Assembly: GCA_027451985.1 (NCBI GenBank)
Contig: DAIDHS010000003.1
Coordinates: forward strand, 1-56,521
Reading direction: 5' to 3'
DNA: 56,521 nucleotides
From: Elusimicrobiota bacterium
Lineage (GTDB): Bacteria > Elusimicrobiota > Elusimicrobia > UBA1565 > UBA9628
Shown here: positions 38,373 through 55,910 of the stretch, piece after piece
How positions within the stretch are numbered: position 1 is the stretch's first letter
How the letters are laid out: each line of letters starts with the position of its first letter
Translations under genes and position numbers: made by a program
Notes under the pieces: generated by a model
The model's input: the letters and a program-made list of their open reading frames with translations, nothing else
Told to the model about the DNA's origin: nothing
Databases searched by the model: none

Positions 38373-39252
38373 AGTCGGCGCCCTCCGCCGCAGCGGGAAG
38401 AATTTCCTTCAAAAGCGAGTTGAACTCGAGCGCCTTGAACATGCCGGTGAGGCGCGCCGGATCGGGCGCGGGCGCGCGGCAGTCCTCCGGCCTGACTTTC
38501 ACGGGCGCGTCACGCTTCAGCTCGATGAGCTCGCGCGCTCGCTCAATGTCCTTGCCGGAGGAAATAAGCGCCTTGGCCGTCTTGGGGGCGATGACCTTGT
38601 CCCCGCCGCGTGCGGCGGCCAAAATTCCTTCCATGGTCTTGAAGCGGTTCAGGAGCTTGGCCGCTCCCGCGGACCCGATGCCCGGAACGCCCGGAACGTT
38701 GTCCGAGGAATCCCCGACCAGAGAAAGATAATCTACCACGGCCTTGGGGCCCACGCCCATCTTCTTCTCGATTTCCTCGGCGTCCATCCACAGATTGCGG
38801 CTGGGGTTGAAGACCCGGATGCCGTTTCCCACCAGCTGCAGGGCGTCCTTGTCGCCCGTGACCACGACGGATTCAAGGCCGTCGTCCGCGCCTTTCTGGG
38901 CTAGGGTCGCCATCAAATCGTCGGCTTCGTATCCAGAAATCTCCACGCAGACGAATCCCATCGCTTCCGCCATCTCGCGCGCTTTCTTGAGTTGAAACAC
39001 CAAGTCCTCATCCGTTTTCTTGCGGGTAGCCTTGTATTCGGGATAGAGTTTGTGGCGGAACGTAGGCCCCGGGGCGTCGAAGCAGACGGCCACGCGCTCG
39101 GGTTTGTCTCTCTTCAAAATCTGCAACAGCATGCGCGCGAATCCGTAGAGCGCGCCCACGGGCTCGCCCTTGGAGTTGGAGAGCGGCGGCAGGGCATGAT
39201 AAGCCCTGTGCAAGAAAGCATGGGCGTCGATAAGGTAGAAACGGGGCTTCAT
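38365..39252 (-). CDS. 5'-3' exonuclease (5'-nuclease part of DNA polymerase I, separate gene)
   Basis: A 295-residue flap/5' nuclease that removes RNA primers and flaps. The start KPRFYLIDAHAFLHRAYHAL, CFDAPGPTFRHKLYPEYKATRKKT, the acidic GYEADDLMATLA and VVTGDKDALQLV blocks, and the H3TH region GDSSDNVPGVPGIGSAGAAKLL are all present, so the metal site looks complete. In most bacteria this domain is the N-terminal third of PolA. Here it stops at 38365 after LEFNSLLKEILPAAAEGADCG, the normal inter-domain border. ATG at 39252 lacks a good ribosome site; trxA ends 67 bp upstream. Confidence 0.93.
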   Translation of the reverse strand: MKPRFYLIDAHAFLHRAYHALPPLSNSKGEPVGALYGFARMLLQILKRDKPERVAVCFDAPGPTFRHKLYPEYKATRKKTDEDLVFQLKKAREMAEAMGFVCVEISGYEADDLMATLAQKGADDGLESVVVTGDKDALQLVGNGIRVFNPSRNLWMDAEEIEKKMGVGPKAVVDYLSLVGDSSDNVPGVPGIGSAGAAKLLNRFKTMEGILAAARGGDKVIAPKTAKALISSGKDIERARELIELKRDAPVKVRPEDCRAPAPDPARLTGMFKALEFNSLLKEILPAAAEGADCG

Positions 39253-39698: not shown

Positions 39699-39727
39699 AT
39701 AATAGCAGGACTTGCCAGGACTGTCAA
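39699..39727 (-). promoter_or_regulatory. Sigma70 promoter of trxA
   Basis: Minus strand: perfect -35 TTGACA (39727-39722), 17-bp spacer, -10 TATTAT (39704-39699). The -35 overlaps the stop codon region of the upstream receiver-domain gene. The start would be near 39692, leader about 46 nt. Confidence 0.85.
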
Positions 39728-40119
39728 GCCCGGGAGGAAACCAGGGCCTCAATCTCGGCCCAAAGCCTCTCCATGGTCACCGGCTTAGTCAAAAAAGACG
39801 ATGCTCCGGCCACGATGCCGTCAATTCGGTCGCGCGGGTCGTTGTATTGTGGCGCGGCCGAGAGGAGAAGAATCGGCGTGCGGCGCAGGTCCTCACGGCG
39901 CCGGAGCCGGCGGCACAAGTCGAAGCCGTGCATGTCGGGGAGCTGCGCGTCGATGACGATGAGAGATGGCGCGTGCCCCTCCAAGAGCGCCATGGCCTCG
40001 GCGGCGGAGGCGGCCGCGCGGGCCTCGATGCCTCTCAGAGACATCACATCCACGAACGTCTCGCGGAAATGCGCATCGTCCTCAACGATAAAAATGGAGA
40101 CTTTCGCCGCTGTCTTCAT
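39724..40119 (-). CDS. Stand-alone response-regulator receiver protein
   Basis: A 131-residue single REC domain without an output domain. The phosphorylation site is Asp57 in LIVIDAQLPD, with the acidic pocket at Glu13-Asp14-Asp15, Ser87 at the switch position and Lys112 in FLTKPV, so it should be phosphorylatable. It resembles CheY/Spo0F-type signalling proteins. No histidine kinase is in the window. It has a dyad-module promoter like the neighbouring transporter and exported-protein genes, with a predicted leader of only about 5 nt, so it may belong to the same regulon. Target unknown. Confidence 0.9.
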   Translation of the reverse strand: MKTAAKVSIFIVEDDAHFRETFVDVMSLRGIEARAAASAAEAMALLEGHAPSLIVIDAQLPDMHGFDLCRRLRRREDLRRTPILLLSAAPQYNDPRDRIDGIVAGASSFLTKPVTMERLWAEIEALVSSRA

Positions 40120-40130
40120 GGCTTCAGATC

Positions 40131-40173
40131 ATTATACGCCCGGCGCAGGGCTTCTTCTCGGGCCCAAGGGCCC
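40131..40173 (-). promoter_or_regulatory. Dyad-module promoter of the receiver-domain gene
   Basis: Minus strand: perfect palindrome GGGCCCTTGGGCCC (40173-40160; half-sites GGGCC-N4-GGCCC), 23-bp spacer, perfect -10 TATAAT (40136-40131). No -35 hexamer at the usual distance. The start near 40124 is about 5 nt before the ATG. Confidence 0.7.
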
Positions 40174-40204: not shown

Positions 40205-42523
40205 CTAGGCCTTTGGCCCGCCCGGAATGGGTTGCGGACGGAAGACGACGAAGGGCTGCAGGACGGCCAGCACGGCGCAGACGCCCATCACGGCCATGAC
40301 CAGGCCGAGCGCCAGGCCGGTCGCAAATTTCGCCATAATCAGGCCGAAAACCAGGTCGCCGGCCATGGTGAAGACCTGGCTGTAGACGCTCATCGCCGAC
40401 CAAATCTTGGCCTGATCTTTCGGGTAAGTCTTGTTGAGCACGCCTTGCTGCAGGCTCGACCACACCATGGCCGCCGGGCTCTGCAGGAAGGACGACAGGG
40501 CGAAGGCGCCCAGGGCCAGCCAAAGATGCGAGGTTAGGAAAAGTGAGAGACTGGCGACCCAGCCCAGGCCGGTCAAAACCGAGCTCCAGACCCCCTGCTT
40601 TTGCAGCGGGGTCAGGTCCGCGCCCAGCTTCTTGCCAAGCCAGCGATCGACGGCGCCCTTGATTGATAAAATACCCCGCTTAATCCCGGAGATTTTTCCC
40701 GCTTCGGGCGCGGCCGCGTTCTTGTTCTGCCGGGAGATGAAGATCGCGTCGAAGATGGTCGCCCCAAAGTTCGTGGCGGTGAAGAAAAGCCCGAAAATCG
40801 CCGCGGAAGTCCCCAAAAAGCCGGCCAGCCAGTGGCCGATGAGAGGAGCATGGGAGATGAAGGCGGGCAGGACCACCGTGCCGATCTTGCCTAGATAGCT
40901 CGGGATGGCCAGGAAAAAGATGGCGTCGCTGATCAGCAATGATGCGGTTGAAAACACCAAAGTCAGGCGCAGGAACCGGTCGTGCCACAGGAGCTTGAAG
41001 CCTAGCTTAATCTCCCCCAGCATCTCCTTTTTCTCTTGCAGCGCCGCCGACCACGCCTTGGCGCTCAAGAGAGAATCATGCAGGCGCTGAAGCGGCGACT
41101 TCGCGCTTTGGGCTCCGGCAATCGCATGCTGCGCATCCCGGTTGACCAGCTTCATTCCCCGATAAATAAGCGCCGCGGCAACAGCCGCCAAACCGTAAAC
41201 TCCGAATGCCAGCGCGCTGCCGGAAGAGGCGCCGAAGCGCGTGGTGGCCCAAGCGATGAAGGCCCCGGCGAAGGCCGGCCCCACGACTCCCGCGAGGCTG
41301 ACGATGAGAGCGTTGGCCGCGTTGGCCTTGTTGTAGTAGGAGGAATTGTCGCCCAAAAGCCGGTTGAAGCCGACATTCGCGGCCAAGACGCCGGCGCTTT
41401 GAAGGAAGGACATGCCGACTAAAAGGCCGATGAGCGGTACCGTGGGGAAAAGGCCGCCGCTGTGGAAAAAAGCGAGGGCGAGGACAGGAACGGCAATCAG
41501 GAATAGGCCGCGGCCCAGATAGGTCTTGAAGAGAAACGACGACGTCTTTTTCTGATCTACGGAGGGCCCCATGATGACGTCCGCGCCCAGCTGCGATCCG
41601 AAGCTCGCCGCGCGCACGACGCCCATGCGGCCGGAGAGCGCCCTGGTCGGCGCGACGAAAGCGGGAAGGGCGGTGGAATAGAACGTCGCACCCTGGGTGA
41701 TGATGACCTGGGCCAGATTGAAGCGCCAAAACTCGCGGTTGCGGGCTTGATCCGGGAATATGTGATAGAAGCGGCCAAGCCACGCCCGAACACGTCGTAA
41801 AATTCCACTCGGAGCTGGCGCGGGCCGCGGGGCTTCAACCGCAGGCGCGGCAGGGACACGTCGAGCCTCCACGGCGTCTGGATTTCTGAAAGAAGGCCCC
41901 AGAAGCCCCGGTCCGCGCCGCACCCGAAGCGGGGCGGCGGAGGCCGCTCCGGAAACCGTCGGCGCCAAAGCGAACTTGCGCCAGGGTTTTGTTTCCAATA
42001 ATACGCGCTCGTGAATCCGGGAGAAAACGGGAGACGCCTTGGCGCGCGTGGAGAGCGGCGGCTCTGCGAGGCGGCCGCTGGGCCGGCTGGCCGGTGCGGA
42101 CTGAGCGGACGCGGATTTTTCAGCCGGAGCTGCGGATTGGAGCGCAGCCTCCGCTTCAACCGACGGCCGGACATCCTGCGCCGACCGGTCCGCCGGTTGG
42201 GACGCCTCGGGCGCCGCGCGATGAGCGGCCAGAACGTCTTTGGCCTGCGCGGCCGCAGTGGGTCCAGAAATTTCGGAGGTTGTTTCGGACTGAGCCGCGG
42301 GAATTCCCGCGGGCAGTTCATTCAAGTCCGCGGAAGCGCCCAGGCCGTTTAAATCCGGTCCGGCCGAAAGCGCCTCGGGAAGAGCCGCAGGGAGCGAAAC
42401 GGCTTGGACGCGCTCGGAGGAAACTCCTGGATCGGCCATTTCCCCGAGCTGGGCGTAGCACGTCAAGCCCGGAGACAGCAAAACGACGCAGAGCGCAAGA
42501 GTGCCGGCGATGGCCTTCTTCAT
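40205..42523 (-). CDS. MFS transporter with signal-peptide-like N terminus and long Ala/Pro-rich extension
   Basis: A 772-residue protein. Residues 1-26 look like a Sec signal peptide with the motif LSPGLTCY; 27-240 are an Ala/Pro/Ser-rich extension; from about 245 to the end there are roughly twelve transmembrane helices with a charged central loop and a second cytoplasmic-like loop (around 610-650), matching an MFS carrier. The substrate is unknown. An exported N terminus is hard to reconcile with the normal N-in MFS topology. ATG 42523 is the only sensible start, because the longer frame (GTG 42541) lies on top of the -10 box. The mRNA would be nearly leaderless (about 3 nt). Confidence 0.8.
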   Translation of the reverse strand: MKKAIAGTLALCVVLLSPGLTCYAQLGEMADPGVSSERVQAVSLPAALPEALSAGPDLNGLGASADLNELPAGIPAAQSETTSEISGPTAAAQAKDVLAAHRAAPEASQPADRSAQDVRPSVEAEAALQSAAPAEKSASAQSAPASRPSGRLAEPPLSTRAKASPVFSRIHERVLLETKPWRKFALAPTVSGAASAAPLRVRRGPGLLGPSFRNPDAVEARRVPAAPAVEAPRPAPAPSGILRRVRAWLGRFYHIFPDQARNREFWRFNLAQVIITQGATFYSTALPAFVAPTRALSGRMGVVRAASFGSQLGADVIMGPSVDQKKTSSFLFKTYLGRGLFLIAVPVLALAFFHSGGLFPTVPLIGLLVGMSFLQSAGVLAANVGFNRLLGDNSSYYNKANAANALIVSLAGVVGPAFAGAFIAWATTRFGASSGSALAFGVYGLAAVAAALIYRGMKLVNRDAQHAIAGAQSAKSPLQRLHDSLLSAKAWSAALQEKKEMLGEIKLGFKLLWHDRFLRLTLVFSTASLLISDAIFFLAIPSYLGKIGTVVLPAFISHAPLIGHWLAGFLGTSAAIFGLFFTATNFGATIFDAIFISRQNKNAAAPEAGKISGIKRGILSIKGAVDRWLGKKLGADLTPLQKQGVWSSVLTGLGWVASLSLFLTSHLWLALGAFALSSFLQSPAAMVWSSLQQGVLNKTYPKDQAKIWSAMSVYSQVFTMAGDLVFGLIMAKFATGLALGLVMAVMGVCAVLAVLQPFVVFRPQPIPGGPKA

Positions 42524-42533
42524 TGTCGAGACA

Positions 42534-42577
42534 CTATACACCTAAACGCGGACGGGCCAACAGAGCCAAAAGGCCTA
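42534..42577 (-). promoter_or_regulatory. Dyad-module promoter of the MFS transporter
   Basis: Minus strand: AGGCC-TTTT-GGCTC (42577-42564), 24-bp spacer, -10 TATAGT (42539-42534). The core GCC-N4-GGC is symmetrical. Spacing is one base longer than in the other copies. Confidence 0.6.
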
Positions 42578-42628: not shown

Positions 42629-45600
42629 TCAGGGCTTTGCGGCCGGCTGCTGCTGGGCTTCGTCGATGAGCTTCTGCGCCTCCCAGAGCTTGGCGTAGAC
42701 GCCTTTCTTGCGCAAGAGCTCCTCGTGAGTCCCCTGCTCCAAGATGGCGCCTTTGCCGAAAACGACGATCTTGTCGGCGCTCTGCACGGTGCTCAAGCGG
42801 TGCGCGACCATGACGATGGTGGTCTTTCCGTGCCGAGCCTCCAGCGCATCCTGAATTCTCTGCTGCGTGACGCCGTCCAAAGCCGCAGTGGGCTCGTCCA
42901 AAATCATGATGTCCCAGGGGTGCCCGGCGCTCAGGAAAAGCCGCGCCAAAAGCAGCTTCTGTTTCTGCCCGCCGGAGAGGTTGGCGCCACGCTCGCCGAC
43001 ACGGCTGTTATAGCCCAGACGAACGATGTCGTCGTGAATGCCGGCCTTCTTGGCCGCGGCCACGATGTCCTCAAAGGACGCGCCCGAGCCCCAGGCGATG
43101 TTGTCTAGAATGCTCTTGGCCGGCGCGATTTCCGCGGAAGCGCCCTGGCCCAGGAGAATTTCCCTGGCTTCCACAATCTTCCCCGCGATGGCCGCCACGA
43201 GCGCCCTATCGGCTTCGTCGCGCTGGCTTCCCAGAGGCATCACCTTATCGGCGTCAGATCCGATGAGAGCGCGCAGAACTCTCTTGAAAATCCTATTTGC
43301 CAGGGAGTGCCGTCCTGAATTGAAAATCTTATGCTCCAAATCCTGCCCGGGGGCGACGGCCTCAAGGCTGTGCCCGTAGCCCATGCGCACGATGTCGTCG
43401 TGGAAGCCCGCGGCCTTGGCCGCCTCCATCACCTGATCTTCGCTCGCCTCCGGCTTGAAGTACTTGATGTTGTACGCCATGCTCTCGTCGAACGGCACCG
43501 GATCTTGGAGAATGGTGCCCACGCGGGAGCGGAAATCCTTGATATTAATCTCCGAGAGGTCCCGTCCATCGATGCGGACGCTGCCCTCGGAAGGCTTCAA
43601 AAGCCCCAGCATCAGGCGAGTCACGGTCGTCTTGCCGGATCCGCTTTCGCCCACCAGCGCAATCATTTGGCCAGGCTTGGCGCTGAGCGTGATCTCCTTC
43701 AAAACCGGCTGCGACGGGCGGTACCCGAAACTGACGTGGTCGAAATTGATGGCGCGGCCGCTCGAAGACGGCGCCAGAGGCTCCGCGTTTTCCTTATAGT
43801 CTTCTTCTTGGTCGGCCATGATCTTGTCGAATTTTGCCGCCGAGCCCTTCATGGATTTGAGCTGGACGTAAGTGTCGCAAAGATCCTGCACGGCTTGGCG
43901 GGAGTAATTCGCCGCGAAATAGTAGAAGGTCGCCATGGGGATGGTGAAGATGCCCGCGTGGACGGCCAGGGCCGCGGCGATGACTAGGCCCACCTGCACG
44001 AAATTAGTCAATCCGCCAGAAAGAGCGCGGTAGGGTGCGTTGACCCGGGCCAGGGCCTCTCCGCCGTCGATGTAGGTCTTGTGGCTGAAATAGCCCGTAC
44101 GCTTGATTTCCCAGTCTTCCTTGCCGGCGGACTTGATGGTCTCGGAATTGACCTCGGTCTGCTCGATGTGGCTGGCGATCCGGGGCTTCAGATCGCGAAA
44201 AAACCACTTATAGGCCTCGCTCGAGCGGTTGCCGTAGATGCTGCTGGGGAGGGCCAAGGCGAGGAAAAGCGTCGGAAGCAGGATGAGGCTCATCTGCCAG
44301 CTCGCGTAGAACATGACGGCTAAGCTGGGAATGAGCAGCGTAAGGTCCTTGACCGTGTCGACAACCACCATGGTCGCCGTGCTCTGCACGTTATAGATCG
44401 CGTCGGTGCCGGTCGAGATGACGTCTCCCACCGGACGGGACTTGTGCCAGGATAACGGAAGCTTGGCCACGTGCTCGTAAAATAAATTGGAGAGGCCCGC
44501 CATCATGCGGTTGCCGATGTCGTACATGAAGCGGCTCAGGAAGTAATTGAGAACGGAGATGGCGGCGTAGCTGGCCAACATGACGCCGCCCCAGGCCAGG
44601 TACATGTGCAAAATCGCAGGGTGTGACGCGGCCGCCGAGGGCAGCAAATCCTTCAGATGCTGGAACATGTTGCCGTAATACCTGGGCGGGATCAGGGACA
44701 GAGCCGAGGTTCCGATGGCCAGGATCGACGCGGCCGCGAGCTGCTTCTTGACCTTGATGCCGGTCTTTCCGATACGGCCCCAGAACCTTGAGATCCAAAC
44801 CAAGCTTTCTTTTATGGACTCGGCGATCTCAACCGTCTTAGCCGCCAGCGGGGAAAGTCCGACGACGGCGGCCGTGCCGGAGAACGCGTAGAGCAAAAGT
44901 GAGGCGTCGGAGGACAAGGAGCGCGCGACGAAATAAAGGCCCGTGGACGCGGCTAGAAGCGCTCCTTGGCGCCAGAGAGCTTTTTTAGCGAAGCTCCCGA
45001 CCTTGGGCTTGTGCGCCAGGAAAACGCCGCGCGCCGCGCCAGTCCCCGCGGCCAGGATTCCGGTCACGGCCAGCGGGACGTGCATCGCCCACGCCGTGGC
45101 GGTCGCGGCGAGACCGCCCAGATAGACGATCATGCGCGGATCCCTGAAGGTTTCCAGGAAATGCCGCGCGAGCACGCGCAAAGATGGCCGTCGCGCCCAA
45201 AGCCGCGCGAGAGCGGTCCGGCCGCCGGAAGACGCCGGCTGCGGTACCTCGGCCGCCTGTTCTGATTTTTCGGAATTGACCGACGAAGCGGAAAGCGCGG
45301 ATGGACCGCCCGCCTCGACCGGGGATTTCGCGGCGACCGCAGCGCCGCGCTCTTCCTTGCTGGGGATGATTCCGTCGTAGAGGGCCTTTAAAAACTTGCG
45401 CTGAGCGTCCGCGCCGTGGGCCGCGGCGAGGACCTTCTCCGTTTTGGCGATTTTGGCGGATTCCGTTTTTTCCGTGGCGGCCAGGGATCCGGTCCTAGTG
45501 GCGGCCTCGGCCTCATCAGCCGCTTGTGCGGCAGAGGCGGCGGCGCTTCCGCTTTGCGGCAAAAGCGCGTCAACCGGTTTTCGCTCAACCGCGCCGCTGG

Positions 45601-45955
45601 CGTCCGCGTTTTTTACAGGCTCGGCCGGAGCGGCATGTTCCGGAGTCGCGGGCTCCAAGCCGGCGGCGCGGGCTGGAAGAGCCTCGGATGTCTGGACGGG
45701 CAAACCCGCGCCAAGATCGAGAGCCGGATTATACTGGCCGGACACGGAAGGAATCTGAATGTTAATGGGCGTGGAATTGAGCGCGGGGATTTCCGCGCCG
45801 GGAACCGCAATGGAGGCATCAACGGGAGTCCCCTCGGATTCAACGGGACCGGCAAAAGCCGTATAGCAGGACAGGCCGGGAGAGAAAATGACGACAAGCG
45901 CGGCGAGGATGCAGGCTAGACTTCGGCGCCAGATCCGGACGTCGGTCGTGTTCAT
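42629..45955 (-). CDS. ABC exporter (half-transporter) with signal-peptide-like N terminus and a duplicated NBD segment
   Basis: A 1108-residue type IV ABC half-transporter. Residues 1-36 look like a signal peptide with FSPGLSCY; 37-260 are Ala-rich; 270-380 hold extra hydrophobic segments; about 395-700 is the six-helix exporter domain. The NBD has Walker A GESGSGKT (Lys775), signature LSGGQKQ (Ser994), Walker B IMILDEPT and VAHRLS. Walker A and signature are about 220 residues apart, roughly twice normal. The insertion repeats the Q-loop/helical segment: AAKAAGFHDDIVRMGY, then AAKKAGIHDDIVRLGY 122 residues later. The first copy is followed by a degenerate pseudo-signature. The start is ATG 45955 (a TTG precedes it). 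Substrate unknown. Confidence 0.9.
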   Translation of the reverse strand: MNTTDVRIWRRSLACILAALVVIFSPGLSCYTAFAGPVESEGTPVDASIAVPGAEIPALNSTPINIQIPSVSGQYNPALDLGAGLPVQTSEALPARAAGLEPATPEHAAPAEPVKNADASGAVERKPVDALLPQSGSAAASAAQAADEAEAATRTGSLAATEKTESAKIAKTEKVLAAAHGADAQRKFLKALYDGIIPSKEERGAAVAAKSPVEAGGPSALSASSVNSEKSEQAAEVPQPASSGGRTALARLWARRPSLRVLARHFLETFRDPRMIVYLGGLAATATAWAMHVPLAVTGILAAGTGAARGVFLAHKPKVGSFAKKALWRQGALLAASTGLYFVARSLSSDASLLLYAFSGTAAVVGLSPLAAKTVEIAESIKESLVWISRFWGRIGKTGIKVKKQLAAASILAIGTSALSLIPPRYYGNMFQHLKDLLPSAAASHPAILHMYLAWGGVMLASYAAISVLNYFLSRFMYDIGNRMMAGLSNLFYEHVAKLPLSWHKSRPVGDVISTGTDAIYNVQSTATMVVVDTVKDLTLLIPSLAVMFYASWQMSLILLPTLFLALALPSSIYGNRSSEAYKWFFRDLKPRIASHIEQTEVNSETIKSAGKEDWEIKRTGYFSHKTYIDGGEALARVNAPYRALSGGLTNFVQVGLVIAAALAVHAGIFTIPMATFYYFAANYSRQAVQDLCDTYVQLKSMKGSAAKFDKIMADQEEDYKENAEPLAPSSSGRAINFDHVSFGYRPSQPVLKEITLSAKPGQMIALVGESGSGKTTVTRLMLGLLKPSEGSVRIDGRDLSEINIKDFRSRVGTILQDPVPFDESMAYNIKYFKPEASEDQVMEAAKAAGFHDDIVRMGYGHSLEAVAPGQDLEHKIFNSGRHSLANRIFKRVLRALIGSDADKVMPLGSQRDEADRALVAAIAGKIVEAREILLGQGASAEIAPAKSILDNIAWGSGASFEDIVAAAKKAGIHDDIVRLGYNSRVGERGANLSGGQKQKLLLARLFLSAGHPWDIMILDEPTAALDGVTQQRIQDALEARHGKTTIVMVAHRLSTVQSADKIVVFGKGAILEQGTHEELLRKKGVYAKLWEAQKLIDEAQQQPAAKP
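43013..43423. repeat. 366-bp offset duplication inside the ABC exporter NBD
   Basis: The block at about 43013-43057 recurs at about 43379-43423, offset 366 bp (122 codons, in frame). It includes an identical 14-bp core (43023-43036 and 43389-43402) and encodes HDDIVR[ML]GY in both copies. Flanking similarity at protein level suggests an ancient tandem duplication of the helical subdomain. Confidence 0.7.
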
Positions 45956-45988
45956 CAAGGGTTTGCGCTCGCTTCGACTCCTGCGGAC

Positions 45989-46031
45989 ATTATAACGGCC
46001 TCCCGGACCGCCGCTCAGGGTCTAAGGACCC
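45989..46031 (-). promoter_or_regulatory. Dyad-module promoter of the ABC half-transporter
   Basis: Minus strand: GGGTC-CTTA-GACCC (46031-46018, perfect half-sites), 23-bp spacer, perfect -10 TATAAT (45994-45989). No -35 hexamer at the usual distance. Leader about 27 nt, without a good ribosome site next to the ATG. Confidence 0.75.
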
Positions 46032-46069: not shown

Positions 46070-48709
46070 TTACGACTTGCCACCATTCTTCCCCTTCCGG
46101 GCGGAAGCGGCTTTCTTCTTCCCGCGGCCCTTGCCCGTGGACGCCGCGGAGGCGCGAGCGAGCTTGGCTCCCGGGAGCGAAACGCCCCAGGACTTTCGGA
46201 TGCGCCGCAAAATGCTCTTCATCGACTTTTCGAAGTGCATGCGGCTCCACTCGTTGAGCGCGGGCCCTTTGGCCCCCGTGGGATAGACGAAGCGCACGGC
46301 GACCTTCGTCACGGGCTTGAGATTTTCGGACGATCCGTAGGTCGTGGACATTTTCTGCCAGGCCTGCCGCGCGACCCACTCATAAAGCTGTGGCTGGACA
46401 TCCTTGTCGATCTTATGGTTGGTCGGAGTCTTGCCGGTCTTAAAGTCCACGATGACCACCTCGAGACCTTCGGGCGTTTCCCGAGCCGCGGCGAAGTCGT
46501 AGACCAAGCGGAAAATATCGCGATACTCCGGATTGGAGCCCTTGTAGCGCTGGACCACGAAGATATTGGGTAGCTCCGTGCCCAGGACGATGGGGTAGTC
46601 TTTGAGGATGGCCGCGACCGCTTCGTGCATCGGCCGCAAGCGGCCGATGTCCTCGTAGTAGGCCGCCATGGTTTGGCCCGGCGGCAGATCCAGCATTTTG
46701 CCTTCGTAGCGAATGGTTTCGTCCCAGATGTTCTTGGCCTGGGCGACGAGGGCCTCGGCGTCCGGGAAGACGCCGTCCGAGCGGTAGCGCCAAATCGCCC
46801 AGTTGAACGCCGAGTGCATCACGTGGCCCAGGAACATCTCCACGGTCTCGCGCCGGCCGCCGGAGCTGTCCCGATGCTGAAGAAACGATGAGATCATGGA
46901 CGCGGACGCGGCCAGATCTCCGGGCTTGTTGACGCGGTATTCCGGAAGAAGGGACGACAGGGCCATGTCCGCGAGGGCCTCGCCGTTTAGATTCGAATCC
47001 ATGACTCCCGGCTGGAGGGCGCCCTTGGTCGCGAACAGCAGCCGCGGGTCGCGGCTGATGACCATCATGTCGCTCGGATTGACATAGAGTTGCTGCCGAT
47101 CGCGCAACAGGGACAAAACAACCGGAACGGCGCGACTCGCGTCCAAGGGACGCAAAACAACGAGAACTCCTTTGCGGCCGTCCATGACGCTTGCGTGGTA
47201 GCGCTCGGCGGGAAGCCCGAGCCCCTGCAAAGCGGCTTCGTAGCGCGCCTTGAACTTCTCCGGCGCCTCGCCCGCAGGAACCGCGACGGCGAACGCGTCC
47301 GGGCGGTTGATTTCCGGCTTAAAAACGCCTTCCTGCTGAGCCGCCAAATCCATCAGCTCACGCTGGCTGACGCTGAAGCGGGGCATTGGAATTTCTTTCG
47401 CAAAGCGCCCATCGTAAGACGCCAGCACATTGCCCTCATCCGCAAGGGTTACAAGCTTGTAGCGGTGGAGCTTGTCGTTTTGGCGCGGGCTCAAGCGCTT
47501 GGTGATGATTTCTTCCGCCGAACCCGGACCGGAAAGCGGTTTATCCGTGGTCAGGATGAAATAGACTCCGGCGTTCATGAGCTTGTTCATGTCCTCAATG
47601 ATCTCCGGGGGCAGACCCTCTGGGAAAAGGCTTAAATCTAAGACAACGGTCTTGGGCAAAACCTTAGACGCCTCAGCGAGGGCCGGGGGAATCTCGTAAT
47701 TTCGGCGCTCGACCGCTTCCCCGAAAGCGTCATCAAGCTTATTATCGGCGATTTTCTGCTTCGCCTCGCCGAAGGGCATGAAATGCACGATGCGCACGCT
47801 GGACTCGAGGCTCACCGGCTTGCTGGCTTTACGCGCGCTCAAATCCTCCATCAGGCGCTTGCGGATCTGCGCGATGCCATGGCGGCGCAGGAAGTCCTTA
47901 GAGTAAACTCCCGCCAAATCGGCCTTAGTCAGCTTTTTGATGCTCTTGGTGGAGGCGCCCTGCACCTTGGATACGAACAGCGTATGGCTGCCGGACCGAA
48001 CGTTGATCTTCGCTCCACGACGGAAGCGGTTCCAGTGCCAGCGCCGTCCGGAGGTGTCCATGAGGCGGATGGTCGAAAAAACGGACGAAGCCTCCAAGGC
48101 CTTCTTGTCGTGGCGGCTGAAATACACATCGAGGCTCTCTGCGGCGGCGCTCTCGTCCACAGAGACGTCCTCTGGGGATCCGTTCTGCTCTCCCCCGTCA
48201 TAAAGCGCCAGCGCCGACTGCCGTTCTCCCGGCTTACCGCTTTCCACTCCCGCCGCCATAGCCCCAAGCACGGCCCGCGCGTCCGCGCGGCCAGGCTTCT
48301 GGGCCGAAACCGTCCGAGAAGATGGGCCCATCTGCGAAGAAGGCGCCGCCTTGGCTGGCATCGCGGCCTCAACCGAGGCTGCCTCCGGCCGGCTGATCGA
48401 AAAAGAGGGAGGGGCGGACTTCGCGGGCTCAAGCGCCCGGATCGCCGCCTCGGCCGCCGGGACGGCATGCACGGCCAGGGAAAGAGAATGAATGGCGCTC
48501 GGCAAGACGCCCAGCGCGGCCTCTTGTCCTAATCCGGCCGTCAAAGCCTGATCCGCCCCAAGCTGGGCAGGGAGCGCGGGGATGGATTCGACCGCGGCGG
48601 GCGCTTCGTCCAAGGACAAAGGAGCCTCCTCGGGCGCGGCGCGAAGATTTCCGGACAAGAGCGTCAGCGCGGCGGCAATCCAGAGGCTGCGCTTCATGGC
48701 CGCCCTCAT
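46070..48709 (-). CDS. Exported HAD-like/PD-(D/E)XK (RecB-type) nuclease protein
   Basis: An 879-residue protein new to me. A signal peptide covers residues 1-25 (MKRSLWIAAALTLLSGNLRA from the fifth residue), then an Ala/Pro-rich tract to about 170. Residues about 350-560 resemble a HAD-type phosphohydrolase core: VVLDLS with Asp358, then NAGVYFILTTDKP; the usual second Asp is Ser, so activity is doubtful. Residues about 620-800 carry the RecB-family nuclease set: His632 (LGHVMHSAF), Glu in GTELPNIF, Asp in FRLVYDF, Asp755 and Lys757 in VDFKTGK, and the Q-x-x-x-Y of VQPQLYEW. The C terminus is Lys-rich. The ATG overlaps the stop of the upstream paralog by 4 bp. An exported RecB-like nuclease is highly unusual. 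Confidence 0.75.
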   Translation of the reverse strand: MRAAMKRSLWIAAALTLLSGNLRAAPEEAPLSLDEAPAAVESIPALPAQLGADQALTAGLGQEAALGVLPSAIHSLSLAVHAVPAAEAAIRALEPAKSAPPSFSISRPEAASVEAAMPAKAAPSSQMGPSSRTVSAQKPGRADARAVLGAMAAGVESGKPGERQSALALYDGGEQNGSPEDVSVDESAAAESLDVYFSRHDKKALEASSVFSTIRLMDTSGRRWHWNRFRRGAKINVRSGSHTLFVSKVQGASTKSIKKLTKADLAGVYSKDFLRRHGIAQIRKRLMEDLSARKASKPVSLESSVRIVHFMPFGEAKQKIADNKLDDAFGEAVERRNYEIPPALAEASKVLPKTVVLDLSLFPEGLPPEIIEDMNKLMNAGVYFILTTDKPLSGPGSAEEIITKRLSPRQNDKLHRYKLVTLADEGNVLASYDGRFAKEIPMPRFSVSQRELMDLAAQQEGVFKPEINRPDAFAVAVPAGEAPEKFKARYEAALQGLGLPAERYHASVMDGRKGVLVVLRPLDASRAVPVVLSLLRDRQQLYVNPSDMMVISRDPRLLFATKGALQPGVMDSNLNGEALADMALSSLLPEYRVNKPGDLAASASMISSFLQHRDSSGGRRETVEMFLGHVMHSAFNWAIWRYRSDGVFPDAEALVAQAKNIWDETIRYEGKMLDLPPGQTMAAYYEDIGRLRPMHEAVAAILKDYPIVLGTELPNIFVVQRYKGSNPEYRDIFRLVYDFAAARETPEGLEVVIVDFKTGKTPTNHKIDKDVQPQLYEWVARQAWQKMSTTYGSSENLKPVTKVAVRFVYPTGAKGPALNEWSRMHFEKSMKSILRRIRKSWGVSLPGAKLARASAASTGKGRGKKKAASARKGKNGGKS

Positions 48710-51081
48710 TTACCCGTCCCCTTCTTCACCGCGCGCGCCTCGACGTTGGCTTTGCGCGATCGGGCCGCTTTCTGCGCCCTGCGGGCCGTGGCTTTCTTCT
48801 TATCCCAGTCGGTCTTGGAAATTCCTTTTTCCTGATCGCTGTAATACGCTTCGTACTCCGGATCCGCCTCCATTCTTTCGATGGAGCTGGTGATCCGCTG
48901 GGCGATGGGGCCCTGCGCGACGCCGCCTTCCTCGCGGCCGTGCAGGAACTCCTCCGGGTCGAACGTCCAGGTGCGGTGGCCGGAGCGGTATTCGATTTGC
49001 ACCTTCAGCTTGGCAATCACAGGGCCGTCCGGCGCGCCCATATGCCACTTTCCGTCCGGACCCATGCGGGCGTCGCCCTGTAAAAGAGCCATGGCCATGA
49101 TCTGGGCGTAAAGCTCTTCCCCGTCTCCGAACGATTCCTTACCGGTCCGGTAGGCGTAGGCTTCAAGAACCCGGCCCTGGGCCGTGTCCCGCCACATCGT
49201 CCTAGGAACGCGCGTGTGTATTTTATACTCGCGCCCGGTCGCCGCGGAGCGAAAGTTGACGCTCACGCCGCTGTTCCAGTCGGTCTTAAGCCGCAGGAGG
49301 TGCGCGCGGATGTCCGCAGCGGCCACGGAGTAGTCGTGAAGCTCGCGCAGGTAGAAGTTGATCAGGTAGCTGTTGGCGTATTCCAAATAGCCGCGCTGGC
49401 GCGACTTCCACGCCTTGGTGTGCATGACTTTAAGGAGGCCCTGGTCCACGAACACGCCGTACTTGAGGGGCATGTACCACATCTGGCGCAGCCGCGCCTC
49501 AACCGCGGAAAGATTCGTCATGGCGTGATTGCCACGGTTGATTTGCTCATAAAGGAAGGCCATCAATTGGTTGATAACGCCGCCGGTGTAGCGCCCGAAA
49601 TCCTTGTCCACCGCGCTCGACGAACCCTTGCCCAAGGAGCCGCCGCCGGAAAAGCCGCCTTCGTCATCCGGTCCGCGCATCCGGTGCCGCGGCTCCCAAT
49701 ATTCCACGAACTGCCGGAGCTTGCCCAGCTTGACTGACACGCCGGGCAGCTGGTTGTCCTTGAGCACGGCGCCCAAGAAAGCGTCGAGATCTCCGGCTGA
49801 TTTCACGACCTGGATGTCGGCGGCCGCCGGGAAGCGCGCGGCGACACCGGACTTCGACGGTGCGGCCAGAACGAGAAATTTATCCGCCTTCTCCGCCAGG
49901 TTTTCCTCCGCGAAACGCTCGCCCAAAGCGCGGTAAATTCTGGGCAGAGCCGCCGAAAGCGGCATGGCGAAAATCATCATTTTTCGCGGATCGGCAGCGG
50001 AGGGCCGCAGGCGATAGGGAAGCCCGGCACCGGACAACGCGCGATTAAAGCGAGACAAAACGCCCTTCCTTGTGATGGCCGCCTGGGTCTCGGACATTTC
50101 AGCCGGAAGCGCAAGAGCATAGGCCAATGGATGTTTTTCATCGGGGAGAAGTTCTCCCTTGAGCGCCGCGCTTTTGGGCAGGGCCTTGTTCAATTTCTCC
50201 ACGATCTTCTCGATGGCGGAGATAGCTTTCTCGTTCAAGCCGGGCTGGTCGTCGATGAGGGATTTCGGATTCTCCGCGCGGCTCGCCACGGAAATTTTTG
50301 CGCCGCCATAGGAAGCGATGATGAGCGGGTTGGTCTGCCGGTTTCTCAACCGGGAGACGAGAATCGTCTCAGCCGAGTCCGGTCCCTTAAGCGGACGCTG
50401 GGTCATAAACACGACATGGACGCCCGCGTCGAGCAACTTCTCGACGGAAGCGACCGTCCTCTCAGACACCGGTCCGGAGAAGCCGTCTTCAATGAACACC
50501 ACGCGGGGATAAAGATTGCGCAGGCTTTCCGCAACAACCGGGTCAACGGCCGGGAGAGCTTCGGATCCGTCGAATCCCGCCTTAAGAGCCGCGTCGGCGG
50601 CGTCCGCTCCGGTGTTCGCGCCCCTGGTCTCTGAAACGGCGGCGGCAATGTGGGAAACTTCGACTTTCGCGGACATCTCTGCATGAGCGCGGGCCTGCGC
50701 CGCGACGCTCCGAACCGGAGCGGCGGCTTCGCGCACGGCCGTTTCAGAGGGAGTTTCAATGCGCGCGGGGGCAGGCGCCTCTGCGAGGGGTTCGACGGCG
50801 GCCTGTGCGGCTGGCCGCGCTGCCGCAGCCGCGGGAAGACTCGGAATCGCCGCGGCTGGGCCCAGGTAGGCGGGATCTTGAATTGAGGATAAATCTTGGA
50901 GGTTCGGAGCGACTGCGAGAGGAGCCAGGGGCATGGTCCCGATGGTCTCGGCGGGAACCGCGTCCTCCGCGCCGATGGGCGCACCCGGCTCGCCGCCAAT
51001 TTCGGCGCTCCACCCCCAACCGCAAAACAGAACCGCCGCAAAAAGTGTTCCCTGCACCGCCGCGAGCTTCTTAAGGCGCAT
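48706..51081 (-). CDS. Exported HAD-like protein, paralog with inactivated nuclease domain
   Basis: A 791-residue protein, first gene of a pair. Residues 1-26 form a signal peptide; 27-180 are Ala/Pro-rich. Residues about 190-400 align with the HAD-like part of the next gene's product (LLDAGVHVVFMTQRPLKGP versus LMNAGVYFILTTDKPLSGP), but the first motif reads VVFIEDGFS without the nucleophile Asp. The C-terminal part follows the same order as the RecB-like domain of the partner, with AYRTGK (643-648) where the partner has DFKTGK and LYAQIMAMA for the Q/Y helix. Catalytic Asp and Lys are therefore replaced. ATG 51081 follows GGGGGAG by 4 nt; the longer frame to 51120 overlaps the -10 box. The role may be structural or regulatory. 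Confidence 0.75.
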   Translation of the reverse strand: MRLKKLAAVQGTLFAAVLFCGWGWSAEIGGEPGAPIGAEDAVPAETIGTMPLAPLAVAPNLQDLSSIQDPAYLGPAAAIPSLPAAAAARPAAQAAVEPLAEAPAPARIETPSETAVREAAAPVRSVAAQARAHAEMSAKVEVSHIAAAVSETRGANTGADAADAALKAGFDGSEALPAVDPVVAESLRNLYPRVVFIEDGFSGPVSERTVASVEKLLDAGVHVVFMTQRPLKGPDSAETILVSRLRNRQTNPLIIASYGGAKISVASRAENPKSLIDDQPGLNEKAISAIEKIVEKLNKALPKSAALKGELLPDEKHPLAYALALPAEMSETQAAITRKGVLSRFNRALSGAGLPYRLRPSAADPRKMMIFAMPLSAALPRIYRALGERFAEENLAEKADKFLVLAAPSKSGVAARFPAAADIQVVKSAGDLDAFLGAVLKDNQLPGVSVKLGKLRQFVEYWEPRHRMRGPDDEGGFSGGGSLGKGSSSAVDKDFGRYTGGVINQLMAFLYEQINRGNHAMTNLSAVEARLRQMWYMPLKYGVFVDQGLLKVMHTKAWKSRQRGYLEYANSYLINFYLRELHDYSVAAADIRAHLLRLKTDWNSGVSVNFRSAATGREYKIHTRVPRTMWRDTAQGRVLEAYAYRTGKESFGDGEELYAQIMAMALLQGDARMGPDGKWHMGAPDGPVIAKLKVQIEYRSGHRTWTFDPEEFLHGREEGGVAQGPIAQRITSSIERMEADPEYEAYYSDQEKGISKTDWDKKKATARRAQKAARSRKANVEARAVKKGTGK

Positions 51082-51118: not shown

Positions 51119-51161
51119 ATTATAGCGGCAGGGCCTTCGCGTCTTGAGGGTCAAAAGACCC
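51119..51161 (-). promoter_or_regulatory. Dyad-module promoter of the HAD/nuclease pair
   Basis: Minus strand: GGGTC-TTTT-GACCC (51161-51148, perfect 14-bp palindrome half-sites), 23-bp spacer, perfect -10 TATAAT (51124-51119). This is the cleanest copy of the module. Leader about 30 nt with GGGGGAG ribosome site. Confidence 0.8.
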
Positions 51162-51199: not shown

Positions 51200-54100
51200 C
51201 TAGGGCTCAGCATTATCCTTGCGGAACGCCGCCCACAAGCCGCGGTAGACGCGGCTGCTCTCCATGAGCTCGGCGTGCGTGCCCGAGGCGACGATGCGGC
51301 CCTTGCTCATGACGTAAATCCGATCGGCGTTGACGATGGTGGGCAGGTTGTGAGCAACGACAATAGTCGTCGGGCGCCCGAAGCCGTCGCCGCCGCGCAG
51401 ACCGTCGATAGCGGCCTGGACGTCTCGTTCAGTCGACTTGTCCAGCGCCGCGGTGGCCTCGTCGAGAATGAGGATGCGCGACTTTCTCAGCAGAGCCCGG
51501 ACGATGGCCACGCGCTGCGCCTGGCCGCCGGAAAGCTGGTTGCCGCCCTCTCCCACGCGAGTGTCGAGGCCTTCGGGCAGATCTTTGTAGAACTCGGCGC
51601 GCGCCGCATGGATGGCGGCCATAAGCTCCTGCTCCGTTACCCCCTTGGTTCCGTAGAGCATGTTGTAGCGCAGGCTCTCGTCGAAAATGGGCGGATCCTG
51701 GGGAATGACCGACAGCGCGTCGCTCAAGCTCCGGAGGCGTGTTTTGCCGACGTCCTGGCCGTCGATGAGAATGCGCCCCGACTGCGGCTCCCACAAGCGC
51801 TGCAGCAAGTTCAAAATCGTGCTCTTGCCGGAGCCAGACTCTCCAACGAAGGCGATGGTCTCCCCGGGCTTGGCCTCAAAAGAGACGCCGTCGAGCGCGT
51901 TGCCTCCCCGGACGTTGTAGCGGAAGCCGACGTCCTCGAAACGCACGTCGCCGCCGCCCATCGGCAGGGGCGCGGCGTCCGCCGCGTCGTCCACGCCAGA
52001 AGCCCGAACCAGCCAGCGGCGCGCGACCTTGGTTTCTCCGTGCATGGTCTTATAGTTCATCCACGTCTGGGCAAGGCCGGTCAAGCCGTCTTTGATGAGC
52101 CCGGCGTAAAATGTCATCGCGGCGATTTTCCCGATTGAGAAACCCCAGCCCGCCCCGAAAGACAGGGCGCCGGCCAGGAATAAGGCGCCCAGAATATAGA
52201 TTAAATTTTCCGTCGCGAATGTGGTGAACGCGTCGGTCAAAACCGCGGAGTAGGCCATGGGCGTGGCTTGCTTGACGCCAGCGTCGGCCAGGGCTTTCAT
52301 CTTTTCGTCCAGCCGCGCGGCTTCATGTTCTTCTTGGCCAAAGGCCTTGACGGTCTGAATATTCTCGAACGACTCCTGGCTGGCGCGGCCCACCTCGGCC
52401 CGGTTTCGGCTGAAGAGCGTGTAGAGCCGCTCCGATTTTTGTCCGGCCCAGCCGTTGACGATGCCCAGAACCGGAACCATGGCCAGCACCACGATTCCGA
52501 CAAGCCAGCTGGTGCGCATGAGCAGGACGGCGCTCAAGCCCGCCTTGAGCAGGCAGGAGATGATGGGAAAGCGAATCGCCGTGTTCTTGGCGACCAAGCT
52601 GCTCACATCGTTGGTGATGCGCGCGGCCAGCGCCCCGGAGTTGTGCTCCTTATCCATATGAAAGGACATTTCCCTCCGGTGGAGCTTCTCGAACAGAGCG
52701 GAACTCAAATCGAATTTCAGCCAAGACTGGAGGGCGTTGTTCAGGTACACGCTCTTGGGCTGGACATAGAGACGCGCGAGGAAGGCCCCGGCCACCACCG
52801 CGATCCAAATTCCCAGGACCGCGCCGGAAGACGGCGCCCCGGCTCGAAGAACGGAGGCCGCGGCGTCCAAAAGGGATCCGGTCGCCTTGGACAAGAGCAC
52901 GGTGAGAACGGCGTCGGTGGTCAAGAGCGCTACAACGGCAAAAATCTTTTTGCGGTAGGGCTTAAAGTAGGGTTTGACCTCGCTGTCGCCACCCGCAAGC
53001 CTGCGCGCCGCGGACGCCAAACGCAAAACAACCCGGCGCACGGCTTGAGTTTTCCGGCGCACAAACGAAGCCAGCGTGCGGCCACGACGCCGCACGGGCG
53101 CCAAGGACGGCGCCCTGATGTCGGCGCCCTCTTGCTTCGCCGAAGAGACGCCCTTCGGCGCGGAGGGCGTGGCGCCGTCGTTGACGCCGGCCAGTCGGGA
53201 GGCGGGCGCGTCGTAGCCCCCGTCTTTCCAAAGCCGCGCATAAGTCCCTCCGGCCGCCAGCAATTGCTCGTGGGTTCCCCGCTCGACGATCCTCCCGCGA
53301 TCCATGACCAAAATCCGGTTCGCTCCGCGGACGGTCGTCAGGCGGTGGGCGATCACGATGACGGTGGGCCTGCGCTCCCCCTCTCCCCGGGCCATCCGCT
53401 CCAAGGCGTCTTGGACCACGTTCTCAGAGGGGCCGTCCAGCTTGGCCGTGGCCTCGTCCAAGATAAGCAATGGCGCGTCGCGCAGCATGGCGCGAACGAT
53501 GCCGATGCGCTGGCGCTCGCCGCCGGAAAGCCGCGAGCCTCCCTCCGCCACGGGCGTCTCAAGCCCTTCGGGGAAGCGGGCCTTGTCGAAAATGAAGTCC
53601 GCCTTGGCCATGCGGATGGCGCGCTCCAGACGCTCTTTCTGCTCGGAAGAGAGCTCGTCTTTCTTGGAAGCGTTAAAGCTTCCGTAAGTCATGTTGTAAA
53701 GCGCCGTGTCGTTGAAGAGCCGGGTATCTTGCTGAACCACGGCCACATGGTTTAAGTAGGAGAGGCGATTAAGCCCGCGCAAATCGCGCCCGTCGATAAG
53801 AATGCGCCCGCTGCCGGCGTCCCAGAGCCGGAGCAGAAGCTTCGCGATGGTGCTTTTGCCCGCGCCCGTGGTTCCCACAATGGCCACGGTCTCTCCGGGG
53901 CGGGCGTGAAAGCTCACATCGTTGAGCGCGGGACCGTCCTGGCCCCCGGCGTAGGAAAAGCCGACGTTCTCGAAACGCACGTCGCCGTCAAATGAAGCGA
54001 GCTTTTCCGCGTCAGGCGCGTCTTTAATGGCGGGTTCGCGGTTCAAATACCCGCGCACGATCTCCGACGCCCCTTCGTACTGCTTGAAGCGGAGGTAATC

Positions 54101-55849
54101 GTTGGTGAGCTGGCTGGCGCCCACGCTGGCGTATCCTGCGTAAGTCGCCATCTGCGTGATGCCGCCGAAGGTGATGGGTTTGACCGCGCGCCCAAGGCGC
54201 CCTGAAAGCCCAAATCCTCCCAGAAGGAAAACGAATTGCTGGGTGAAAAACCCCATGATGAGCCCCAATCGGGAGAGCCTGCTCTGGATGCGCGCCTGGG
54301 CCACGCCCAAATCCATAATCTCCCGGGCTTTCTCCTTGAAGCGCTCCATCTCCTGGTCCAGAGAAGACAAAATCTTTACCGCGCGCACCTGTCGCAGGCT
54401 TTCCTGAGAGCGTTGGGTGAGTTCCGCCTGACGGCCGGTCTGTTCGAAGTTAAGATTGTTCAGTTCGCGGCCGTAGCGGCCCATGAGGATGGCCGCCGGG
54501 AGAACAACGGCGGCGACCGCCGCGCTGATGAGGATGCTTTGGGAGATGAGCAGGGTCCCGCCGACCACCAGCATGACGACGCCCATCGGCCAATCCATGG
54601 GCGTGCTCACGTTCTTAAAAGATAGGAAGTTGGTGTCGTTAAGGATGCGGCTGGCCAAGGCGCTGGATTCCTGCTTTTTTTCCAGATGGAACGCCATCTC
54701 CTGTTGGCCGAACTTGCGCGCCAGGGCGACGCGATAATGATAGGTGGCGCGCAATCCGAGCACGCGATAGAGATACGTGTAAAACCAGCTTACCGCCGCG
54801 GAGGCCAGCGACAAGAGAACGGAGGCGCCCACAAGCCACCAGACATGCGCCAGCGCGGCTCCGCCTCCGGAGGCCGCGTGTGCGGCGTCTAGGAGCGCGC
54901 CGATGACGGCGGCCGTGGCCAACGGCAGGGCGGCGTCGGCCACGCCCAATCCGGCGGCCGTCAAACGCTGCCTCCGCAAAGGCCTTGTGGTCCAGGCCAA
55001 TGCCGGATCGCCGAATAAAAATTCCCGAGTCTTGGCCGCGGCATGCCGAGTGATCCGAACCGCCGCGCGCAGCGGCCCCAGAACCCGCCCCCCGAACGAA
55101 ACGGGCTCGCGCCGATAGCTCTCCGGACCCGGGGCCGCGGGAACCGACTCCGTGCCGGCAGCGTTTTGGGTAAGCGCTCCCAACGGCAGCCCGGACGCCG
55201 CGGTCGCCCGCGCGGAATTGGCCGGAGCCATGGCGGGCGTCCTTGGAGCGGCGTTTTCGCCGTAGGCGTCAGCCGCGTCAAAAATCCTGTCGGACTCCAC
55301 CTTTAAAGCGGCCTCTGGAGCGCGCGGGCGCACCAGCCGCTGCAAGGCTCCGGCTATTTTTTCCAGCCGGGAAATCGTGCGGACCCGCTCGGCCGTTTCG
55401 GCCGGCGCGCGTTTGGGCGCGAGAACAGCCGTTTTAACGGAAGCGTTCTCGCGGCCTTCCTCAGAAGAAAAGGCTTTGAGTTGCTCTTCGACCGCTATGT
55501 CGTTCGGCGCCGCTTCCTCGGCGCGCACAAAGACGCGGCTCTGATCTTTTGCGCCAGACGCCGTTTCTGGGTCAGCGGGGTTCTCCGCGGGAGCCGCATT
55601 CAGCAGCGGGGAAAGTCCTTCCTCGGTCAGCGCGGGAAGCTGCGCTTCTCCCGCACCCAAGAGAGCCTCCGGCGCAGGAGAAAGGCCTGAAAAATTATCC
55701 GCCGCGCTCGCCGGCAGCGACCACGCGCTCATCTCGGCCTGCGCGTCCGCGGAAAATTCCGCGCCCAAAGCCTGATAACAGGGCAAGCCCGGCGTCAGCG
55801 CCAGAAGCGCCGCCGTCAACGCGCACGCGACTAATTTTTTGAGAGCCAT
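51200..55849 (-). CDS. Full-length double ABC exporter (TMD-NBD-TMD-NBD) with signal-peptide-like N terminus
   Basis: A 1549-residue fusion of two exporter half-units. Residues 1-29 look like a signal peptide with LTPGLPCY; 30-290 are an Ala/Pro-rich extension. TMD1 spans about 295-600, and NBD1 has GTTGAGKST (Lys665), VVQQDTRLF, LSGGERQR, LLILDEATAKLD and IAHRLT. A linker of about 90 residues leads to TMD2 (about 975-1260) and NBD2 with GESGSGKST (Lys1342), VIPQDPPIF, LSGGQAQR, ILILDEATAALD and VAHNLP. Both ATPase sites look intact. Single-chain full exporters are uncommon in bacteria, where homodimers or heterodimers dominate. The substrate (lipid, drug or peptide) cannot be deduced. A weak AGGA site precedes ATG 55849. 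Confidence 0.92.
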   Translation of the reverse strand: MALKKLVACALTAALLALTPGLPCYQALGAEFSADAQAEMSAWSLPASAADNFSGLSPAPEALLGAGEAQLPALTEEGLSPLLNAAPAENPADPETASGAKDQSRVFVRAEEAAPNDIAVEEQLKAFSSEEGRENASVKTAVLAPKRAPAETAERVRTISRLEKIAGALQRLVRPRAPEAALKVESDRIFDAADAYGENAAPRTPAMAPANSARATAASGLPLGALTQNAAGTESVPAAPGPESYRREPVSFGGRVLGPLRAAVRITRHAAAKTREFLFGDPALAWTTRPLRRQRLTAAGLGVADAALPLATAAVIGALLDAAHAASGGGAALAHVWWLVGASVLLSLASAAVSWFYTYLYRVLGLRATYHYRVALARKFGQQEMAFHLEKKQESSALASRILNDTNFLSFKNVSTPMDWPMGVVMLVVGGTLLISQSILISAAVAAVVLPAAILMGRYGRELNNLNFEQTGRQAELTQRSQESLRQVRAVKILSSLDQEMERFKEKAREIMDLGVAQARIQSRLSRLGLIMGFFTQQFVFLLGGFGLSGRLGRAVKPITFGGITQMATYAGYASVGASQLTNDYLRFKQYEGASEIVRGYLNREPAIKDAPDAEKLASFDGDVRFENVGFSYAGGQDGPALNDVSFHARPGETVAIVGTTGAGKSTIAKLLLRLWDAGSGRILIDGRDLRGLNRLSYLNHVAVVQQDTRLFNDTALYNMTYGSFNASKKDELSSEQKERLERAIRMAKADFIFDKARFPEGLETPVAEGGSRLSGGERQRIGIVRAMLRDAPLLILDEATAKLDGPSENVVQDALERMARGEGERRPTVIVIAHRLTTVRGANRILVMDRGRIVERGTHEQLLAAGGTYARLWKDGGYDAPASRLAGVNDGATPSAPKGVSSAKQEGADIRAPSLAPVRRRGRTLASFVRRKTQAVRRVVLRLASAARRLAGGDSEVKPYFKPYRKKIFAVVALLTTDAVLTVLLSKATGSLLDAAASVLRAGAPSSGAVLGIWIAVVAGAFLARLYVQPKSVYLNNALQSWLKFDLSSALFEKLHRREMSFHMDKEHNSGALAARITNDVSSLVAKNTAIRFPIISCLLKAGLSAVLLMRTSWLVGIVVLAMVPVLGIVNGWAGQKSERLYTLFSRNRAEVGRASQESFENIQTVKAFGQEEHEAARLDEKMKALADAGVKQATPMAYSAVLTDAFTTFATENLIYILGALFLAGALSFGAGWGFSIGKIAAMTFYAGLIKDGLTGLAQTWMNYKTMHGETKVARRWLVRASGVDDAADAAPLPMGGGDVRFEDVGFRYNVRGGNALDGVSFEAKPGETIAFVGESGSGKSTILNLLQRLWEPQSGRILIDGQDVGKTRLRSLSDALSVIPQDPPIFDESLRYNMLYGTKGVTEQELMAAIHAARAEFYKDLPEGLDTRVGEGGNQLSGGQAQRVAIVRALLRKSRILILDEATAALDKSTERDVQAAIDGLRGGDGFGRPTTIVVAHNLPTIVNADRIYVMSKGRIVASGTHAELMESSRVYRGLWAAFRKDNAEP

Positions 55850-55867: not shown

Positions 55868-55910
55868 ATATTAAGATTACGCAGGCGGAAAGAAGAGTGT
55901 CTAAAGACCT
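55868..55910 (-). promoter_or_regulatory. Dyad-module promoter of the double ABC exporter
   Basis: Minus strand: AGGTC-TTTA-GACAC (55910-55897), 23-bp spacer, -10 TAATAT (55873-55868). Eight of ten half-site positions fit the consensus. The start near 55861 gives a leader of about 12 nt. Confidence 0.6.

Follow-up and report, generated by a model that had tools for sequence, protein, structure and literature searches.

A predicted exported RecB/AddB-type nuclease and its catalytically dead partner in Elusimicrobiota

Two tandem genes in the window, the 56,521-nucleotide stretch of DNA analyzed here, encode proteins A (P0001) and B (P0002), which we read, with a probability of about 0.5, as the two subunits of an exported, metal-dependent DNase that resides in the cell envelope, belongs to the RecB/AddB superfamily, and probably acts on external DNA. 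We infer the nuclease activity, the A:B complex, its substrate, and its role from computed folds, motif conservation, gene pairing, selection, cysteine depletion, and a shared promoter element. RecB/AddB/Cas4-type nucleases normally work inside the cell, in repair, CRISPR, and recombination. Elusimicrobiota, the host phylum, are little-known, largely uncultured bacteria of soil and groundwater; the genome that contains the window measures 2.4 Mb, and its closest named relative is MAG REEB145 (85% identity for P0001).

Results

A conserved gene pair detected in Elusimicrobiota

Both open reading frames of the original prediction are present, in tandem on the minus strand:

46070-48709, minus strand: A gene (P0001), an exported-type ASCH-HAD-nuclease protein
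48706-51081, minus strand: B gene (P0002, from Met14), an exported-type protein with a HAD and a dead nuclease-like domain

The B gene starts at the ATG at 51081, with GGGGGAG upstream of the start, and overlaps the A gene by 4 bp (ATGA). Scanning 84,980 species representatives, we detected homologues of the pair solely in Elusimicrobiota: 22 of 24 loci carry Elusimicrobia or Elusimicrobiota in their titles, and the remaining two, titled only "bacterium," are contigs from genomes in the window's own family. Of 295 genomes from the phylum, 29 contain a match, which is strong in about 25. The B gene lies immediately upstream of the A gene in all 27 loci with upstream DNA present; in five loci, B itself contains two HAD and dead-nuclease modules.

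The surroundings of the pair consist of transporter and peptidase genes rather than defense genes, including, in several loci, an M28 peptidase with a signal peptide immediately upstream. No A or B relatives were found in phage, plasmid, or IMG/VR (viral contig) collections, and a mobile defense function was set aside on this ground. Elsewhere in the window, DNA polymerase I is seemingly split into 5'-3' exonuclease and polymerase reading frames (36708-38372 and 38365-39252, minus strand).

Protein A combines three folds, the last of which is a predicted active nuclease

AlphaFold2 modeling on family alignments (A residues 165-855; pLDDT 83.9, pTM 0.81), followed by Foldseek searches against the PDB, resolved A into an ASCH, a C2-cap HAD, and an AddB nuclease fold. 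From the N-terminus, its features are as follows:

48638-48709, minus strand: predicted signal peptide, MRAAMKRSLWIAAALTLLSGNLRA (own heuristic; 22/27 homologues)
48143-48637, minus strand: Ala/Pro-rich tract (A+P 38% in residues 30-150; dN/dS 0.28)
47705-48142, minus strand: ASCH-like domain, residues 190-335 (Foldseek fold match)
46970-47692, minus strand: HAD domain, residues 340-580 (Foldseek: 6rmo, 4bnd, 5dxl)
46184-46942, minus strand: PD-(D/E)XK nuclease domain, residues 590-842 (Pfam, AddB fold, invariant residues, dN/dS)
46073-46183, minus strand: Lys/Arg-rich tail

The nuclease domain matches AddB with a Foldseek probability of 1.00, so that the RecB-type fold originally proposed was recovered by structure prediction. 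In the model, a helix bearing H632, strands bearing D738 and D755-x-K757, a helix bearing Q772 and Y776, and a strand follow one another in the order expected for the core, in partial support of the originally proposed clustering of D755 and K757 with H632. The Pfam profile PDDEXK_1 (PF12705) covers residues 627-789 of P0001 at 22.3 bits, a marginal score just above the curated cut-off of 22, and matches 16 of 17 homologues (E up to 0.05). His632, Asp755, Lys757, and the Q772-x3-Y776 helix occupy the positions claimed for them, and, together with E712 and D738, are unchanged in A and in 29/29 homologues covering these positions; the invariance of these seven RecB-family residues extends to members of other families. 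Between the window and a congener, the domain has a dN/dS of 0.029, indicating strong purifying selection. Judged from this sequence and model evidence, A is likely an active nuclease. Pfam detects no helicase domain in either protein of the pair or in the two genes that flank it. The cysteines of a 4Fe-4S cluster are also missing, with 30 of 31 A cores free of any cysteine, and an Fe-S nuclease of the AddB/Cas4 type was rejected on this ground.

The ASCH-like domain adds to the architecture of the original prediction, which had missed it. It superposes on E. coli YqfB (9kyf; TM-score by target 0.71-0.74, probability 1.00), with further matches to 1t62, 3s9x, and 5gus and with Zymomonas ZmASCH among the ASCH structures. 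The likeness to ASCH proteins is one of fold and not of sequence: Pfam ASCH (PF04266) finds no match at this domain in 28 members, W226, D264, and R335 are its only invariant columns, and the alignment does not keep the Thr-Lys-Glu triad of YqfB-type amidohydrolases (PMC6972931). Three A homologues (L063, L066, and L067) carry an extra C-terminal domain, which in L067 gives a weak Pfam ASCH match (19.7 bits, cut-off 21.2).

The proposed HAD-like domain was borne out at a fold probability of 1.00. It is of the C2-cap kind and shares its fold and the first motif-I Asp with phosphatases and mutases such as phosphomannomutase, trehalose-6-phosphate phosphatase, Cof-type proteins, and IMP nucleotidase. 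Unlike in these enzymes, the second Asp of motif I (D-x-D) is missing from P0001 and most other A proteins (9 of 28 have one) and from P0002 and every other B, which makes phosphatase action doubtful.

Protein B retains the fold of a nuclease and has lost its catalytic residues

The corresponding features of B are as follows:

51004-51081, minus strand: predicted signal peptide, MRLKKLAAVQGTLFAAVLFCGWGWSA (own heuristic; 24/25 homologues)
50536-51003, minus strand: Ala/Pro-rich tract (A+P 42% in residues 30-150; dN/dS 0.34)
49786-50535, minus strand: HAD domain (Foldseek: 4bnd, 8jb3, 6rmo; D212 conserved)
48835-49785, minus strand: catalytically dead PD-(D/E)XK-like domain (YRTGK replaces DFKTGK)
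48709-48834, minus strand: Lys/Arg-rich tail

Pfam detects no domain in B. Its AlphaFold2 model, built on family alignments (residues 175-790; pLDDT 81.8, pTM 0.77), matches HAD folds in the PDB; its matches to AddB and Cas4-like nucleases are weaker (Foldseek probability 0.6-0.9). Profile comparison aligns A with B across the HAD and nuclease domains at 99.5%; taken alone, the two nuclease domains are collinear at E 1e-4 with a probability of only 58%. The original reading of both proteins as nucleases holds for P0001, as a prediction, and fails for P0002, in which the D and K of the D-x-K motif are replaced while R658 and G660 are fixed; a second nuclease is thereby ruled out. The dead domain nevertheless shows the strongest constraint of the pair (dN/dS 0.018 between the window and a congener, compared with 0.28-0.34 for the Ala/Pro tracts), which argues that B is not decaying and that its dead domain has a job.

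Such an arrangement has a precedent in RecC, which carries an inactive nuclease-like domain beside RecB. A and B resemble RecB/RecC in coupling a presumably active nuclease to a partner with an inactivated nuclease-like domain; they differ in having no helicase or ATPase, in being paralogues that share HAD and nuclease domains, and in their predicted export. It is probable that A and B form an active/dead complex.

Both proteins are predicted to be exported

Our own heuristic, which is not SignalP, recognizes N-termini resembling Sec-type signal peptides in 22 of the 27 A homologues and 24 of the 25 B homologues; of the other A starts, three appear similar on visual inspection. The family has no other membrane segment in common. 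Cysteine is nearly absent, with 2 residues in the 38,596 of the A and B cores, compared with 0.88-1.00% in proteins from these genomes that are presumed to be soluble and cytosolic; of 124 such proteins with at least 350 residues, only 11 are free of cysteine. This near-absence lends strong indirect support to a place outside the reducing cytoplasm. Export of the pair, proposed originally from a signal peptide, stands as a prediction that we consider likely.

The MFS and ABC transporter proteins of the window (40205-42541, 42629-45958, and 51200-55849, all minus strand) also begin with a signal-peptide-like segment that ends in a common PGLxCY motif; an Ala/Pro tract of 150-200 residues comes next. 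Such an N-terminus is unusual for polytopic transporters.

A promoter element is shared by the pair and its neighbors

An element of the general form GGGWCCTWNGACCC, 23-24 nt, TATAAT, likewise absent from the original prediction, is present in 26 of 42 family genomes. Four copies lie in the window:

51119-51161, minus strand: promoter-like element before B, GGGTCTTTTGACCC, 23 nt, TATAAT; also before B homologues in most loci
45989-46031, minus strand: copy before the ABC exporter gene 42629-45958 (minus strand; pattern and weight matrix)
40131-40173, minus strand: copy before the response-regulator gene 39724-40119 (minus strand; pattern and weight matrix)
55868-55910, minus strand: weaker copy (score 19.3) before the double ABC exporter gene 51200-55849 (minus strand)

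A strict pattern finds three sites genome-wide, all within the A/B cluster, and none in a reversed control. Relaxed, it finds about 43 sites in the 42 family genomes versus 1 in the control, most of them a few bases upstream of a gene encoding a signal peptide and an Ala/Pro tract. Signal peptides were surveyed in samples of 0.34 Mb of the window's own genome and 0.8 Mb of a relative. With a weight matrix built from the relaxed-pattern sites (threshold 20), open reading frames with signal peptides follow 3/3 sites in the window's own genome, outside the window, and 8/9 in a relative, compared with 12% of random positions; the 8/9 set is not fully independent, as some of its sites come from the relative's own A/B cluster and were used in the matrix. 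The genes behind the element include the window's ABC exporters, peptidases, a response regulator, an ATP-grasp protein, and a Lon paralogue.

Its location, about 42 bases upstream of the expected transcription start, would be that of a class II activator site. One gene that it precedes encodes a stand-alone response-regulator receiver protein (39724-40119, minus strand), and the same is seen in a distant family (L094 near 3289, minus strand). This protein may help to control the regulon.

ATP-dependent proteins share the N-terminus and the promoter element

The Lon paralogue (L109:6420-8972, minus strand; G000:C4), encoded in the window's own genome, has a signal peptide, an Ala/Pro tract, an intact Walker A motif, and the catalytic Ser, and its mature part is free of cysteine and of any other membrane segment. 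Similar cysteine-poor Lons occur beside a canonical Lon in about a dozen relatives (L154-L163). Next to A/B in relatives, we also observed an ATP-grasp protein and an M48 peptidase/ABC1-type kinase fusion (L074:597-3995, plus strand; L072:7179-12251, plus strand), both of which have a signal peptide and lack membrane segments further on; the ATP-grasp gene, like the Lon gene, is preceded by the shared element. The Lon paralogue accompanies A/B in 16 of 17 genomes (P 8e-6; P 0.04 inside one genus), although these values are indicative only, because presence was judged by identity bands in genomes that are related to one another.

The ordinary periplasm contains no ATP. These exported-type proteins have either changed function or reach an unusual place, and as some of them share the N-terminus and promoter element of the pair, they speak against an ordinary periplasm as its location. 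Following the second option, the signal peptide and Ala/Pro tract could lead to an ATP-containing place, either an internal compartment or, after secretion, another cell, that hosts normally cytosolic enzymes including A and B. The catalytic motifs retained in Lon, the recurrence of cysteine-poor Lons, the membrane-segment-free ATP-grasp and kinase fusion proteins, the common promoter element, and the co-occurrence of Lon with A/B all point in this direction. We nevertheless regard it as unlikely: Elusimicrobiota are not known to us to have an internal compartment, a change of function may have occurred in the ATP-dependent proteins, and relatedness confounds the co-occurrence. Moreover, a nuclease works without ATP; the puzzle bears on the location of the pair and leaves its chemistry untouched.

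Discussion

The A/B family is a variant of the RecB/AddB nuclease superfamily. It shares with RecB/AddB/Cas4-type nucleases (PF12705; AddB 3u4q) the fold and the order H...D...D-x-K...Q-x3-Y, and departs from them in its predicted export, its fusion to ASCH and HAD domains, and its obligate dead partner; lacking the helicase or Fe-S features that define AddAB, RecBCD, and Cas4, it belongs to none of these. When the PDB was searched with HMM profiles of the whole proteins and of single domains, nothing meaningful matched, so that the relationships are visible by fold only, or by Pfam in the case of the nuclease. The claim of an unprecedented architecture has held up, with none such in Pfam, no model match in NCBIfam or PADLOC, and no description in the partial set of literature searched. 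The superfamily itself is already known; what appears to be new is a form of it that is exported, paired, and fused to ASCH and HAD domains, together with the associated regulon.

In the envelope DNase that we favor, Sec-type signal peptides would take both chains to the cell envelope or beyond, with the Ala/Pro tracts serving as flexible spacers and the basic tails contacting nucleic acid. A would cut through H632, D738, D755, K757, and a bound metal, and B, its fold kept and its catalysis lost, would act as an obligate structural or DNA-guiding partner in the manner of RecC. For the ASCH and HAD domains, the most likely task is binding, of nucleic acid or of phosphorylated ends, and not catalysis. 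The pair may break down external DNA for nutrient recovery or uptake, under a promoter type shared with exported peptidases and transporters; the presence of ComEC and three secretins in the genome is in keeping with this reading. Degradation of external DNA is our best guess, offered tentatively, and the nucleic acid scavenging proposed originally is plausible.

Stationed at the envelope, the same nuclease could instead cut incoming phage or plasmid DNA. SNIPE, a GIY-YIG nuclease with DUF4041 and one transmembrane helix (PMC13190303), establishes the principle of defense by a nuclease at the cell surface, where A and B are also predicted to reside, and export would keep the nuclease away from the chromosome. 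The comparison extends to purpose and not to construction, as the folds differ, Pfam matches to DUF4041 or GIY-YIG were not found in A/B, and SNIPE acts on the cytoplasmic side. Given also the lack of PADLOC matches, the lack of relatives on phages, plasmids, and viral contigs, and the transporter and peptidase neighborhood, we consider defense improbable.

The pair could also be a binding or scaffold complex in which neither the HAD nor the nuclease domains are enzymatic. The degenerate HAD motif I and the dead domain of B are what such a complex might contain, but the seven RecB-family residues that stay invariant in A, even in members of other families, make it quite improbable. Attack on neighboring cells, also raised in the original prediction, could draw on the predicted export of the nuclease and on the secretins of the genome, but is very improbable for a pair with no adjacent immunity gene, no variable C-terminal toxin tips, an obligate dead partner, and strong, uniform conservation.

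In a poorly known phylum, an intracellular-type nuclease class apparently resides outside the cytoplasm, fused to two more domains and accompanied by a conserved dead partner. Together, the pair and the shared promoter provide testable handles on what Elusimicrobiota export and how they handle external DNA. We consider it possible, if unlikely, that a single, dedicated export regulon, recognizable by its promoter element and by a shared N-terminus of signal peptide and Ala/Pro tract, places the Lon paralogue, the ATP-grasp protein, and the nuclease pair outside the ordinary cytoplasm. If so, these proteins would either occupy a compartment that contains ATP or be delivered into other cells, and should Lon and ATP-grasp truly work outside the cytoplasm, the view that ATP-dependent enzymes are absent there would be challenged.
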